From the NCBI RefSeq assembly GCF_003397705.1, contig NZ_QJVB01000003.1, positions 248,001-312,000 on the forward strand: a stretch of 64,000 nucleotides of DNA, given 5' to 3'. Within the stretch, counting starts at the first letter, position 1; each line of letters starts with the position of its first letter. This DNA comes from Gardnerella swidsinskii. Its GTDB lineage: Bacteria > Actinomycetota > Actinomycetes > Actinomycetales > Bifidobacteriaceae. Made by a program: the position numbers and the translations under genes. Below, piece after piece: positions 29,463-39,049 of the stretch. Below the pieces are notes generated by a model that was not told where the DNA came from, did not search any database, and was given only the letters and a program-made list of their open reading frames with translations.

Positions 29463-30254
29463 TCACAATTGGTTATCTGGATCCTCATCTTCGTCTGCTG
29501 AGCCAAGCAGAATTCTTTCACAAACGTTAACGATGCACATAAGAAGCGCAGTAAGAATTATTATTACTATTGTTGCAGAAAAAATAAGTGGTGTTCTAAA
29601 TGAGTTATAAGCGAATTGAAGCCAAATTCCTAGCCCATCTTTGGCTCCCAAATATTCTGCAGTTGAAGCAGTTCCAAAAACATAAGCTGCACTAATGCGT
29701 ATGCCACCAAAAATCTGGCGAGCTGCAACCCTTAATTTAACATGCCACAAAGTCCAAGTTCTACTTGCTCCACAAGTTAAAGCAACATCTGTATAAAAAC
29801 TTGGAACAGCGTCAAGACCTCGTATAGTTTGCACAGCAATAGGGAACATGCTGAAAACCATTACGATTACAATTTTCCCCGATATTTCAAAACCAAACCA
29901 AATCAAAAAAATTGGCGCAATAGAAATTAATGGCATAGTTTGCGCTGCGCATAAAAGCGGGAATAAAGCAGATTTAACAAGCTTACAAACATGGAAAATA
30001 ACACCTAAAAGAATTCCAACTACTATTGCAATAGAAAAACCGATAACTGTTTCTTGTGTTGTAATTAATGCTGCAGGTAATAGAGTTGGCAAAGCGTCAG
30101 CTGTTGATTGAGCAATTGAAGATGGTGTTGGAATCAAATTTTCCGAAATTTTATAATATTCGCATGCATACTGCCAAAAAACAAGTAAAACTATTACAGA
30201 AAATACAGTTGGCAGATATTTAATTAGCATACGTTTAAAACGCGATTGCGTCAT
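29463..30254 (-). CDS. ABC transporter permease (thiamine-precursor/sulfonate type)
   Basis: 263 residues from ATG 30254, chosen for AGAAAGGA about 11 bases upstream; an earlier in-frame start (30299) has no RBS. Six membrane helices and the BPD_transp_1 EAA-like loop (ALTCGASRTWTLWHVKLRVAARQIFGG, in part) identify a ThiX/SsuC-type permease. The nearest candidate partner is the divergent NMT1-type binding protein at 30565. No ATPase gene sits in this pair. Confidence 0.88.
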   Translation of the reverse strand: MTQSRFKRMLIKYLPTVFSVIVLLVFWQYACEYYKISENLIPTPSSIAQSTADALPTLLPAALITTQETVIGFSIAIVVGILLGVIFHVCKLVKSALFPLLCAAQTMPLISIAPIFLIWFGFEISGKIVIVMVFSMFPIAVQTIRGLDAVPSFYTDVALTCGASRTWTLWHVKLRVAARQIFGGIRISAAYVFGTASTAEYLGAKDGLGIWLQFAYNSFRTPLIFSATIVIIILTALLMCIVNVCERILLGSADEDEDPDNQL

Positions 30255-30427
30255 GAAAACTCGATTCCTTTCTGTAAACGACTTCGATTGCTGCCCCAAT
30301 CGAATTATTTAAAACTACAAATAGCATGTACATTCTATTAGAAGCGCACAACTTCTGTGAGTTCAATAGTGTACGAGATTTTTTTATTTGTCTATTTAAT
30401 CATGCATAATCTAAATGTTTCGTGAGT
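30255..30427. other. AT-rich divergent spacer
   Basis: Between the leftward permease and the rightward binding-protein leader. It should contain both promoters, but no pair of -35/-10 boxes stands out. The decamer CATGCATAAT at 30401-30410 recurs upstream of argR (52295-52304). Confidence 0.4.
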
Positions 30428-30542
30428 CAATGTGTGGCAAACTGTAGCAGGTTGAATCTGCGCAGGGGCATTGAACGGCGCGGGCTAGGCCCTTTGTTAC
30501 CGTTTTCTGCCGAGTTCGTGTCACTTTCCCAGAAGAACGGTA
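30428..30542 (+). promoter_or_regulatory. Structured 5' leader of unknown class
   Basis: Unusually GC-rich for this window and able to fold extensively. CAATG (30428-30432) pairs with CATTG (30468-30472) around an inner hairpin (CTG..GCAG / CTGC.CAG). AACGG (30474-30478) can pair with CCGTT (30500-30504). That same strand (TACCGTT with TTCT, 30498-30508) can instead pair with AGAA and AACGGTA (30531-30542), forming an 11-bp stem with one bulge. Such mutually exclusive pairing suggests a riboswitch or attenuator. It does not contain the TPP aptamer motifs CTGAGA and ACCTGAT. Confidence 0.5.
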
Positions 30543-30564
30543 CAAGAAACAAAGTAGGGAACTC

Positions 30565-31617
30565 ATGAATATGCGTATTGTAAAGCGTACTCTTGCGTTT
30601 GTTCTTTCTGCGTGCTGCGTATTTTCTTTCTCGGCATGTGGATTTGCAAGTAGTAGTAAGAATGCAAATCTTCGTAAAGTGTCGTTTATGCTATTTTGGG
30701 CACCGGATACTAATCATATTGGTATTTATGTTGCTAAGCATAAAGGATGGTTTAAAGATGCTGGATTAGATGTCAATATACTTGCTGTTGCTCAGACTGG
30801 TTCGGAACACGCAGTTGATAGTGGTGTTGCTGATTTTGCTCTTAGTACTTTGACAAATGCTGCTGATTTTTCAACAAAGGGAGCAAATCTTGAGCAAGTT
30901 ATGCAAGTTCAGCAAAAGCCAAGTGCTATTTGGTGTTCACTTGCTTCGAACAATAAAATTCATTCTCCAAAAGATTTTGATGGTCGTACTTTTGCAACTT
31001 TTGGTTCAGCTGAAGGTGATGCTGTAATTCGTAGGATGATTCAACACGATGGTGGTCAAGGTAAGTTCGACAAAGTTACTGTTGGAACTTCAACTTTTAG
31101 AACTCTTGAATCTGGCAAAGCTGATTTTGGTGGCTTCTATGGCACTTGGGAAGGCGTGCAGTCTGAAATGTTCGGACCAAAGCTTCGCTGCTTCATGGAG
31201 GGCGACTACGGTGTGCCAGGTCAGCCAGATACTATTGGAATAATCGCAAATAAGCGTACTGTAGCTAAAGACCCTAAGCTTGTTCGAGCATTTGTTAAAG
31301 CTGCAAAGCGCGGATATGAATATGCTTATGAACATCCTGATGAGGCTTCTGAAATTCTTGTGAAAGAAGCAAAAGATGCTAATCTCGACATAAAGTTTGT
31401 TAAGCGTAGCATGAAGATGATTGTTGACGGTCAATATTGGGGCAATCGCGCGGATATTAAAAGCGGAAAATTTGTGTTCGGAACCACTGATGTTAAAGGC
31501 GCTCAAGCTTACTTTAACTTCTTAAGTAAGGAAGGTGCTTACACTGATTCTAAAGGCAAAGTAACTCATAAAACTCCGCAAGCAAAAGAATTGTCTACTG
31601 ACGAATTTTTGAAATAA
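30565..31617 (+). CDS. ABC substrate-binding lipoprotein (NMT1/ThiY-like)
   Basis: 350 residues. A lipoprotein signal ends in the lipobox SFSAC, with Cys about residue 25. The mature domain is of the NMT1/THI5 class: FWAPDTNHIGIYVAKHKGWF followed by KDAGLDVNI is the usual start of ThiY proteins that bind formyl-aminopyrimidine or HMP thiamine precursors. Acts outside the membrane and delivers substrate to a permease, presumably the divergent one at 29463-30254. ATG 30571 is an alternative start. It has a long structured leader. Substrate assignment is by family resemblance only. Confidence 0.82.
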   Translation: MNMRIVKRTLAFVLSACCVFSFSACGFASSSKNANLRKVSFMLFWAPDTNHIGIYVAKHKGWFKDAGLDVNILAVAQTGSEHAVDSGVADFALSTLTNAADFSTKGANLEQVMQVQQKPSAIWCSLASNNKIHSPKDFDGRTFATFGSAEGDAVIRRMIQHDGGQGKFDKVTVGTSTFRTLESGKADFGGFYGTWEGVQSEMFGPKLRCFMEGDYGVPGQPDTIGIIANKRTVAKDPKLVRAFVKAAKRGYEYAYEHPDEASEILVKEAKDANLDIKFVKRSMKMIVDGQYWGNRADIKSGKFVFGTTDVKGAQAYFNFLSKEGAYTDSKGKVTHKTPQAKELSTDEFLK

Positions 31618-31663: not shown

Positions 31664-31718
31664 GGGCGTATCGAGTAGTTGTGATTTTACGTTCAGCTAC
31701 AATCGATGCGCCCGTTTT
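31664..31718 (+). terminator. Terminator after the ThiY-like gene
   Basis: An 11-bp stem with one mismatch (31664-31674 with 31703-31713) and a further pairing TAG/CTA inside is followed by G and TTTT. It ends 38 bases before pth. Confidence 0.8.
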
Positions 31719-31756
31719 GTTGTTTTGCTAAATATTTGAATGGGGAGTGGTCTGCC

Positions 31757-32356
31757 ATGGCATCGGATTTTTGGCTTATTGCTGGCTTGGGAAATCCTGG
31801 TACAAAATATGAGGGTACTCGACACAACATGGGTTTTATGGTTGCAGACGTTTTGGCACAACGTTGGTCAGTATCTCTTTCGGATCACAAAGGTTTAGCT
31901 AAACTTGGCAAAGGTGTTATGAATCTTGATGGTCGCGTAGCAAAGTTTTTCCTTGCTAAACCGTTGACTTTTATGAATGATTCTGGTGCTGCAGTATCTT
32001 CTATAAGCTCCTATTATCAAATAGAACCGGATCATATTGTGATAATTCACGATGATATGGATTTAGATTTTGGACGCATTAAAGTAAAAGCAGGAGGCTC
32101 TGCGGGAGGACATAACGGTATTCGTTCTATCGATCGCTCTCTTGGTACTCCTCAATATTCTCGAGTGAGAATGGGTGTTGGTCATGCGCAGCGTGGTGCT
32201 CATGCGCACGATAATACTGTCAATTGGGTTCTTGGAGGTTTTGCTGCAGCTCAAAAATCTGATCTTCCAAACTTTTTAGCAGATGGTGCTGATGCTGCAG
32301 AAAGTATTATTTTCCATGGATTAGCAGCAACTCAGGAGAAGTTTAATGGCCGCTGA
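31757..32356 (+). CDS. pth: Peptidyl-tRNA hydrolase
   Basis: 199 residues, normal length. Frees tRNA from peptidyl-tRNA that dropped off ribosomes. N-terminal LIAGLGNPGTKYEGTRHNMGF holds the conserved Asn and catalytic His; FLAKPLTFMNDSG and VIIHDDMDLDFG with GGSAGGHNGIRS complete the signature. ATG 31757 has GGGGAGTGG upstream; the longer frame from 31706 overlaps the terminator. Its 3' end overlaps the mfd start by 11 bases. Confidence 0.96.
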   Translation: MASDFWLIAGLGNPGTKYEGTRHNMGFMVADVLAQRWSVSLSDHKGLAKLGKGVMNLDGRVAKFFLAKPLTFMNDSGAAVSSISSYYQIEPDHIVIIHDDMDLDFGRIKVKAGGSAGGHNGIRSIDRSLGTPQYSRVRMGVGHAQRGAHAHDNTVNWVLGGFAAAQKSDLPNFLADGADAAESIIFHGLAATQEKFNGR

Positions 32357-36879: not shown

Positions 36880-37878
36880 TTACTTTGTGCAATCCATTAC
36901 AGAATCTTTCAAATTCTTTGGAGCTTGCTTAATTAAACCATATTTCACGTATTCTTTAGCCTGAGTTTCCATCATTTTCAAACCTTTTTCATCGATTGGA
37001 CGAATAGTTGGATTGTCAAACTTTTCAATTTGCTTAATAATAGTTTCGCTTGCTCCGAGCTGCTTGTATGCGTTTCCAATAACATTGTTTTCTTTATGAG
37101 ACTTTTCTGCTTCGCGAACAAGAGCCTTGTACATCTTCTTAACAAGATCTGGATGCTTTTGTGCAAAGCTCTTAGAAACAATGTGAATAGTAACGTTCAT
37201 ATTGCCGTACTTTTTAGCATTTACAAGCAATTTTGCGCCTGGAGTTGTCATTGCTGCAGCAAGATTCTGATCAAATGAAGAAATGGCATCAATCTGCCCA
37301 GATGTAAATGCTGCTTGGAAGTTTTTAGGGCTCATCTCAACTTTGTTAACTTTAGAAACGTCTAAACCGCTTTTATCGAATGCACGGTGAAGCATGTAAT
37401 CGCCAGTATCACCGTTGTGAATAATAGCAACTTTTTTGCCGTATAAGTCTTTTAGTGTTTTTACGCCGCTTTTTGCGGACGCAACGATTCCTTGAGAATC
37501 ACCGTTGTAATATTCGAGTGCAAAAGCTACCCATGGCTGTCCTTCTGCAATCAAATCAATGAAGCGTCCAGTTCCAGTAGTTGTAGCATCTGCATTTCCG
37601 CTCATCACAGCAGTAAGACCGTCAACTGGAGTGTAAGGACCAGTGTAAACTACTTTAGATTTGCCAAATTCGTCTTGAAGGAATTTCTCATTTTTCAAAG
37701 TAGTTAAATAATTTGCTGTAGAAAGATAAGCAACTCTCATAGTTCCAGCATCTTCTTTTGAAGAAGCGTTTGATGATTTTTGTGAGCTTCCGCAAGCTGC
37801 AAGAGATACAGTTGCACAAGCAGCGCAGATTAATGCAATAATGCTCTTTTTAGAAAATCGCATTTTTAAATTAGCCAT
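36880..37878 (-). CDS. ABC substrate-binding lipoprotein (SsuA/TauA-like), TPP-riboswitch operon
   Basis: 332 residues. Lipobox SLAAC with the acylated Cys near residue 29. The mature domain resembles SsuA/TauA/NMT1 binding proteins (MRVAYLSTANYLTTLKNE, GNADATTTGTGRF, LKDLYGKKVAIIHNG, AAFTSGQIDAISSFDQN). By sequence alone it would be called a sulfonate or nitrate binder. Its operon is under a thiamine pyrophosphate riboswitch, which points to thiamine or a precursor. It lies 154 bases after the permease gene, across an A/C-rich leader; AAAGGAG precedes the ATG. Confidence 0.85.
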   Translation of the reverse strand: MANLKMRFSKKSIIALICAACATVSLAACGSSQKSSNASSKEDAGTMRVAYLSTANYLTTLKNEKFLQDEFGKSKVVYTGPYTPVDGLTAVMSGNADATTTGTGRFIDLIAEGQPWVAFALEYYNGDSQGIVASAKSGVKTLKDLYGKKVAIIHNGDTGDYMLHRAFDKSGLDVSKVNKVEMSPKNFQAAFTSGQIDAISSFDQNLAAAMTTPGAKLLVNAKKYGNMNVTIHIVSKSFAQKHPDLVKKMYKALVREAEKSHKENNVIGNAYKQLGASETIIKQIEKFDNPTIRPIDEKGLKMMETQAKEYVKYGLIKQAPKNLKDSVMDCTK

Positions 37879-38032: not shown

Positions 38033-38848
38033 TTATTGGCGTGATTTTTTATCTAATCTGCGTTCAGGTATAAGAAGATACTCTAATATGTTTGCAGTAA
38101 GCTCAGATCCAAGACCTGCAATTGCGTACATAATAACGCATGCCATCATTTGATCTGGTCTAAAGAATTCTTGTGCTCTTGAAAGAATGTATCCAATTCC
38201 AATAGAAGAATTAACTGTTTCGCAAGTCACTAATGCAACCCATGCTACAGATATTGCAAATCGCAAACCTGTCATAAAACTTGGAAGTGTGCCGCGAAGC
38301 AAAATAGATATAAAAATAGTAGATTTTTTAACGTGATAAACCTGCGCTAATTCAAGAAGTTTTGAATCAATATTACGAACTCCGTCGCGAATATTAACGT
38401 ACATAGGTCCAAAAACACCGACAGCTATAAGTGCTATTTTCATCGTTTCATCTATTCCGAGGAAAATTATTAATATTGGAGCTAAAGCCGGGAATGGAAT
38501 TGACCTCAACATGTGGCTTGGTTTATCAACTACAATATTGCCAAGCTTACTGCCTCCTGCAAGTATTCCTGCTGGAACAGCAAAAATAATTCCTAACAAA
38601 AGTCCTAAAAGAACTCGTAAAATACTTATTCCTAAGGATTTTAATAATATGCCTTCGTTGTTTAAATCAATAAAAGCTTGTATTACTTCATATGGGGATG
38701 GCAAAGAACGGTCTTCGGTTGGAGAAAGAGTTGTGAAAAACCACAAAACCAAAATGAGGATAGTTGAAATCCACACTTTACATGAAGATACCGCTTTAAA
38801 TGCAATCTTCAATATGTTCTTCGCTTTATTAGGCGAACTGTAAGTCAT
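38033..38848 (-). CDS. ABC transporter permease of the TPP-regulated operon
   Basis: 271 residues, six predicted membrane helices; the loop ELAQVYHVKKSTIF and RGTLPSFMTGLRFAISVAWV match the BPD_transp_1 EAA region. SsuC/ThiX type. First gene of the operon. Its ATG (38848) is 7 bases after AAGGGA, which forms the 3' conserved strand of the TPP aptamer, so translation should fall directly under the riboswitch. Confidence 0.9.
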   Translation of the reverse strand: MTYSSPNKAKNILKIAFKAVSSCKVWISTILILVLWFFTTLSPTEDRSLPSPYEVIQAFIDLNNEGILLKSLGISILRVLLGLLLGIIFAVPAGILAGGSKLGNIVVDKPSHMLRSIPFPALAPILIIFLGIDETMKIALIAVGVFGPMYVNIRDGVRNIDSKLLELAQVYHVKKSTIFISILLRGTLPSFMTGLRFAISVAWVALVTCETVNSSIGIGYILSRAQEFFRPDQMMACVIMYAIAGLGSELTANILEYLLIPERRLDKKSRQ

Positions 38849-38850
38849 GC

Positions 38851-38957
38851 GACAATCCCTTCGATAGTTTTAGCTATATCAGGTTCAACGAGTGTATTCT
38901 CAGCGCAACACTATATGTATTGTTGTTTGGCACGATGTAGTTGCGCACCCCGTGTCT
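38851..38957 (-). promoter_or_regulatory. TPP (THI-box) riboswitch
   Basis: Read on the minus strand: GACACGGGGTGC, then GCGCTGAGAATAC (the conserved CTGAGA), then TTGAACCTGATATAGC and GAAGGGA, followed by TGTC, which closes the P1 helix with the first GACA. These are the invariant parts of the thiamine pyrophosphate aptamer in the right order and spacing. There is no separate expression platform before the ATG at 38848. Confidence 0.95.
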
Positions 38958-39049
38958 GAGGTCATTATCACTTAAGGGTATGGACAAGTATATTTTAAAT
39001 CGATATTTATAAACGATATTACTTAAAAATATACAATTGGCTCATATGA

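Follow-up and report, generated by a model that had tools for sequence, protein, structure and literature searches.

What kind of regulatory RNA, if any, lies in front of the gene for an NMT1/THI5-like ABC substrate-binding protein in Gardnerella swidsinskii? The window analysed here, a stretch of 64,000 nucleotides, holds a leader between this gene (30565-31617) and a divergent ABC permease gene on the minus strand, and an earlier note, made from the letters alone, had described it as GC-rich and highly structured, a candidate for an unclassified riboswitch or attenuator. Position and GC-richness were given correctly: the covariance-model match runs from 30424 to 30542, and the leader (30428-30542) has 53.9% GC compared with 39.3% in the whole window, a richness that only 0.67% of all 115-base stretches equal. 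The description as highly structured is borne out by comparison of related leaders and not by energy, as the single-sequence minimum-energy fold is no stabler than dinucleotide shuffles (z = -0.21). Because this fold energy is ordinary, chance was judged by comparison, and stability was not used as evidence.

Of 53 leaders, 49 have a -10 like hexamer (Table 1) whose end lies 1-15 nt upstream of the matched RNA (9-15 nt in 48 of these 49; shuffled rate 5%), which suggests that the RNA probably opens its own transcript, even where it lies behind the permease gene. A stricter two-hexamer consensus scan gives no plus-strand promoter at the window's leader, and the transcript start is deduced from the sequence.

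Conserved architecture of the leader

A leader of the same architecture is present in 16 of the first 30 loci, the window's included. In a MAFFT alignment of 16 leaders, RNAalifold found the helices P1, P2 and P4 unaided, with 98.2% of the cells paired and substitutions in both partners at 12 of 21 pairs; slid registers of this alignment are only 37-57% paired. Four of five covariation measures were equalled by none of 500 shuffles, and the fifth, the count of further pair types, by 7 of 500. A covariance model of P1, P2 and P4 built from 16 leaders (R1) aligns 53 distinct leaders with 98.3% of the cells paired and two-sided changes in 15 of 21 base pairs, in an alignment that leans to the model. 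Two matches described below, L103 and L104, are kept in this 53-leader test and in the covariation test of the upstream alternative pairing; they are left out of the P4 and P3 pairing, strand-count, partition-function and -10 hexamer counts. Each position of P4 is paired in 49 to 51 of 51 distinct leaders, with compensatory changes.

The three helices are hence supported by compensatory changes across leaders, as the alignments read, and the changes on which the earlier note had made its reading depend do occur in related leaders. P2 has a loop that differs in length and sequence among them. In the unpaired core a near-invariant UGUGGCAAA faces GGR, and about a dozen of the unpaired bases are invariant. 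Judged by this comparison, the leader is a real new RNA family and no chance hairpin.

Table 1. Features of the leader and its neighbouring genes, with positions in the window
Feature	Positions	Strand	Basis
Divergent permease gene	29463-30254	-	PF00528, E 2.9e-24
Hairpin in permease leader, loop UUGGGGCAGCA	30283-30304	-	also in five further loci
CATAAT, -10 like hexamer, possible leader promoter	30405-30410	+	hexamer scan
Class A leader RNA (extent of covariance-model match)	30424-30542	+	covariance model
P1 5' strand (UCAAUG)	30427-30432	+	pairs in 50-51 of 51 leaders; two-sided changes in 4 of 6 pairs
J1/2, near-invariant UGUGGCAAA, candidate ligand-binding core	30433-30441	+	invariant or near-invariant alignment columns
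P2 hairpin	30442-30465	+	first three base pairs kept in 49-51 of 51 leaders, fourth in 42 of 51
J2/1, conserved GGR	30466-30468	+	alignment columns
P1 3' strand (CAUUGA)	30469-30474	+	same pairing test in 51 leaders
P3 5' strand (putative)	30476-30491	+	duplex with 30509-30523, -20.6 kcal/mol
P4 5' strand (ACCGUUUUCUG)	30499-30509	+	pairing and compensatory changes
P3 3' strand (putative), within P4 loop; base 30509 common to P4	30509-30523	+	duplex, shuffle test
Anti-Shine-Dalgarno UCCC; last C is first base of P4 3' strand	30527-30530	+	comparison of leaders
P4 3' strand (CAGAAGAACGGU, one bulged G)	30530-30541	+	pairing and compensatory changes
Shine-Dalgarno AGGGA of binding-protein gene	30556-30560	+	comparison of leaders
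NMT1/THI5-like ABC substrate-binding protein, 350 aa, regulated gene	30565-31617	+	PF09084, E 1.3e-57

A further helix, P3, would be formed by the strand after P1 and the loop of P4. Its own arms give a mean duplex energy of -21.0 kcal/mol, compared with -14.0 for dissimilar foreign arms and -14.6 for shuffled arms, and 113 of 1532 foreign arm combinations are stronger than the own ones. The shuffle test of the own 3' arm covered 51 leaders of the genus and five of the 11 leaders from other genera (L219, L221, L226, L227 and L229); p <= 0.05 was reached in 33 of these 56 leaders (22 of 38 distinct arm pairs), and the 23 that fail include L221 (p = 0.17) and L227 (p = 0.27) from other genera. 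In the distant leader L229, also of another genus, the P3 and P4 sequences have been replaced and are still complementary, with a P3 of about a dozen bases (p = 0.006). There is hence moderate support for P3 pairing with the P4 loop as a pseudoknot. The fold of P1, UGUGGCAAA/GGR loop, P2 and P3/P4 pseudoknot appears well established by comparison, P3 less firmly than the rest; P3 and P4 together could give an H-type pseudoknot, and an alternation of the two is also conceivable.

Distribution and gene linkage

With R1, 54 of the 112 genomes searched in the genus show the leader (E < 1e-6; one place in each), and three more genomes have weak matches only. A sample of the family, 151 genomes from 16 genera, shows it in 48 genomes and three genera, namely this genus and two others. 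At the level of the order (297 genomes) our search gave a single weak match outside the genus (G453, E = 0.0025), which we treat as chance. Weak second places of R1 were also noted in six genomes of the genus (E = 0.007-0.07), one of them being L104, described below. An exact scan for the core pattern in named genomes gave 83 stretches, 80 of which were taken as loci (L136-L215). R1 matches 20 of these 80, all of them Bifidobacteriaceae (Gardnerella greenwoodii, vaginalis and piotii, and several Bifidobacterium), and has no match at E <= 0.01 in the other 60, which come from unrelated taxa.

In 54 of the 55 loci of the genus the leader is succeeded on its own strand by the same NMT1/THI5-like gene, which also comes after it in all 11 loci from other genera. 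The one exception, L104 (G098:C39), is a chance hairpin of 22 bits in a stretch of repeated similar hairpin sequence, with no binding-protein gene behind it. L103 (positions 1423-1513, G102; 38 bits) precedes the binding protein and keeps a P3/P4-like sequence, and its P1/P2 core is not recognised by eye; it is counted among the 54 leaders in the gene-linkage, Shine-Dalgarno and T-run counts. Orthologs of the binding protein are present in 110 of the 112 genomes, and the leader thus points to a nutrient whose supply is evidently under tight control in bifidobacteria and Gardnerella. The window's protein is 93% identical to that of G079. In another genome (G112:C6:83261-85003) the binding-protein match, with 98% identity to the protein of the window, falls into two parts separated by about 750 bases.

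Regulation of the binding-protein gene

The Shine-Dalgarno sequence lies 13-60 bases past the end of the model match and reads AGGGA in 49 of the 54 leaders, AGGGG in one and AGGAC in four. In these four, UCC replaces CCC in the anti-Shine-Dalgarno; as the four leaders are alike, this is probably one compensatory event. The helix between UCCC and the Shine-Dalgarno sequence is short, and in partition functions without pseudoknots it has a probability above 0.5 in 17 of 51 leaders and of 0.19 in the window's leader. The conserved anti-Shine-Dalgarno points to control of translation.

The leader shows the conserved structure with compensatory changes and the invariant unpaired core that are general marks of riboswitches, and it stands in what appears from its deduced transcript start to be the 5' UTR of a transport gene. 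Its sequence comparisons place it as a new family within a known kind, the cis-regulating leader RNAs, and as a candidate for a riboswitch in the strict sense. We consider it fairly likely that the leader is an orphan riboswitch, in which the UGUGGCAAA/GGR internal loop and the P3/P4 pseudoknot would bind a small molecule related to the cargo of the transporter. Binding of this ligand may alter the pairing of UCCC with the AGGGA Shine-Dalgarno, and a plentiful supply of the compound would probably lower translation of the binding protein. Less uptake protein when the compound is plentiful is the usual arrangement for uptake genes. Orphan riboswitches lead directly to undescribed metabolism, and the covariance models supply dozens of natural variants for ligand testing.

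A leader tied closely to one gene and seen in one bacterial family could also be a regulatory RNA bound by a protein. A bifidobacterial translational repressor or RNA chaperone might bind the UGUGGCAAA/GGR loop, with no direct binding of a small molecule. Firm matches were found in one family only among the samples searched, and before one gene; about a dozen unpaired bases are invariant and no more, and the motif GNGGCAR turns up again in other leaders of this transporter, which would fit a short binding site for a protein. However, a pseudoknot of two interlocking helices, preserved in three genera, goes beyond what a protein site usually requires, and we hold this second explanation to be rather unlikely.

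The attenuator that the earlier note had offered beside the riboswitch, with P4 as intrinsic terminator and P3 or the upstream AACGG as antiterminator, is improbable. P4 is a strong conserved stem close 5' of the gene, and the upstream alternative forms in many leaders, but the GC stem followed by a U run that marks an intrinsic transcription attenuator is not found: five consecutive T after P4 occur in only one leader of 54 (L055), the terminator scan gives no terminator-like site at the window's P4, and the Shine-Dalgarno sequence has a conserved partner.

The strands of the proposed switch, CCGTT (30500-30504), AACGG upstream (30474-30478) and AACGGTA downstream (30536-30542), all lie where the earlier note had placed them, and the downstream stem is P4. 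An exchange of CCGTT between the two AACGG copies holds for its downstream half, where the pairing is solid and the covariation clear, whereas the upstream partner covaries weakly and is missing in some leaders. The upstream AACGG:CCGTT pairing has 4 or 5 of its 5 pairs in 40 of 51 leaders. Its cells are 79.5% paired against a shuffled mean of 76.9% (79.5% is reached by 3 of 500 shuffles), and its covariation score of 0.247, reached by 1 of 500 shuffles, is near that of slid registers (up to 0.225). The central G-C is missing in 16 of 53 leaders. Because of this weak covariation, and because the upstream AACGG bases also belong to P3, we regard the alternative pairing as possible and partly supported rather than established; the UCCC:AGGGA pairing appears to be the more consistent regulatory feature.

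A leader peptide, in which AUG UGU GGC AAA at the end of P1 would open a short frame whose translation controls the gene, is very improbable: 40 of the 54 leaders, that of the window among them, have the ATG at this place, but 14 have none, including leaders with P1 changed by compensation (CCGGCG), the frame enters P2, which varies in length and sequence, no Shine-Dalgarno sequence is seen before it in the window, and its third codon positions vary no more than the first two.

Comparison with known RNA families

None of the 4227 families of Rfam 15 gave a covariance match to the window's leader at E <= 10, and the leader is hence unclassified, as the earlier note had it. A scan of 14 related loci at E <= 1 gave two microRNA families only, outside the leaders, and L031 had matches of 12-17 bits to two microRNA families and a viral one, far short of the gathering scores of these families. 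That the leader is no TPP aptamer also agrees with our scan. The TPP riboswitch (RF00059) regulates thiamin-related genes, and its only match in the window is at 38838-38962 on the minus strand, near a second ThiY-like region (weak protein match at 37093-37866, minus strand). As this other ThiY-like locus adjoins the TPP aptamer, the gene behind the leader seems to answer to something other than TPP.

The Actino-ugpB motif (RF02927), which the earlier note had wanted ruled in or out, is ruled out as the identity of the leader. Its model has 61 positions and does not match there; the single match in the genome is on another contig (C6:25773-25833, L255), with 82.5 bits and above the cut-off of the family.

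Several riboswitches share features with the leader. The NMT1 motif is, by its name, associated with NMT1-type genes, and like the leader it is found as a 5' leader RNA; the Rfam-wide scan, with no family matching at the leader, would set the two apart if it covers this motif. The preQ1-II and SAM-II riboswitches are pseudoknotted and translational, with a compact pseudoknot beside or including the Shine-Dalgarno sequence. The leader shares with them the probable compact pseudoknot near the Shine-Dalgarno sequence, and the Rfam-wide scan would set it apart from both if it covers their families. The HMP-PP riboswitch senses a thiamin pyrimidine; it is terminator-embedded by the title of its description, which the leader is not, and the Rfam-wide scan would likewise separate the two if it covers that family.

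Descent of the leader from TPP or another known Rfam riboswitch by divergence has hardly any likelihood in our estimate. The resemblance of the gene to thiamin-pyrimidine binders speaks for it, and NMT1-type genes are known riboswitch targets, the NMT1 motif being a xanthine riboswitch (PMC7373994), but against it stand the empty scan of the leader, the related loci with matches off their leaders only, and a TPP aptamer elsewhere in the window.

Our literature search, covering titles and the starts of abstracts with few subscription journals, gave no description of the leader RNA. A survey of 2017 reportedly described 224 motifs. Passage searches in the main texts of PMC11109978, PMC8632094 and PMC2864571 gave neither Gardnerella nor NMT1, and Bifidobacterium in one reference title only, in PMC2864571.

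The transporter and its cargo

The gene behind the leader is ThiY-like, as had been proposed. The solved chains closest to its product are 4nmy (E = 5.2e-35) and 3ix1, a formylaminopyrimidine binder (E = 5.1e-21), a resemblance that suggests a cargo of the thiamin-pyrimidine type. Mapping of the neighbour genes of relatives by tblastn points to another kind of cargo. A nucleoside-hydrolase-like gene (PF01156, as scanned in the single example L070) comes next on the same strand in 11 of the 15 regions mapped for the ortholog group (9 of the 12 that bear the class A leader) and in 6 of 11 regions from other genera, and its occurrence downstream in many relatives suggests a nucleobase or nucleoside. 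No match to this gene was found in any of five mapped class B regions or in G009, a close relative of the window; the next open reading frame of the window (31706-32356) belongs to the same cluster as the gene after the binding protein of G009. The cargo is probably a small heterocycle, either a thiamin-type pyrimidine or a nucleobase or nucleoside.

The divergent permease probably belongs to the same transporter as the binding protein, and the orthologous permease adjoins the binding protein in relatives. The list of open reading frames extends the permease to a TTG at 30299; a start at the ATG at 30254 agrees with the relatives.

Another leader RNA family of the transporter

The binding protein is more distant from the window's (44-51% identity) in 43 of the 110 genomes that have it. 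These distant genes are preceded by another leader, class B, in nine of the ten loci read (L021-L030), the contig of the tenth ending too early. A relative of class B, termed class C, lies before the permease gene in many genomes. Both classes read CUCCUCACCUU ... AAGGUG, of which the last part is the Shine-Dalgarno sequence and the first part its complement, so that CACCUU can pair with AAGGUG (for instance L005:198-299, L026:1272-1430 and L106-L135). In class C this helix is invariant in 26 aligned sequences and therefore gives no support by covariation.

The exact pattern of class B/C is present in 40 of the 112 genomes of the genus, with none in the reversed control. Of the first 30 elements inspected, 25 precede the permease and five the binding protein; eight of 10 further places precede one of these two genes, giving 38 of 40 across the genus. 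Of the remaining two places, one has neither gene behind it (L245, described below) and the other is a weak match, probably due to chance. A covariance model of class B/C (R2) matches 95 of the 112 genomes, including 40 of the 54 with class A; it has no match in the 12 genomes with a binding protein at least 80% identical to the window's. At the level of the class, R2 gave weak matches in 4 of 296 genomes (E = 0.001-0.006), which are treated as chance. Rfam gave no family on class B/C in six class B and two class C bearing loci at E <= 1, and none on one class C leader at E <= 10.

It is a possible, though doubtful, arrangement that one bifidobacterial transporter stands under two unrelated and undescribed riboswitch classes answering to the same compound, one for which there is no described riboswitch: class A would control the binding-protein gene, and class B/C the permease gene or, as class B in the more distant part of the genus, the binding-protein gene, each hiding the Shine-Dalgarno sequence in its own way. 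A transporter with two uncatalogued leader families would be an unusual instance of RNA meeting the same regulatory need in independent ways.

A class B like RNA of 54 bits was also seen without a recognised transporter gene behind it (L245:3054-3138; G110:C1:2732553-2732637), possibly a relic. In place of a class B/C leader, the window's own permease has the small hairpin with the loop UUGGGGCAGCA. This hairpin is close to the 5' hairpin of class B, whose loop is UUGGUGGCAGCA, and it is terminator-like when read on the plus strand.
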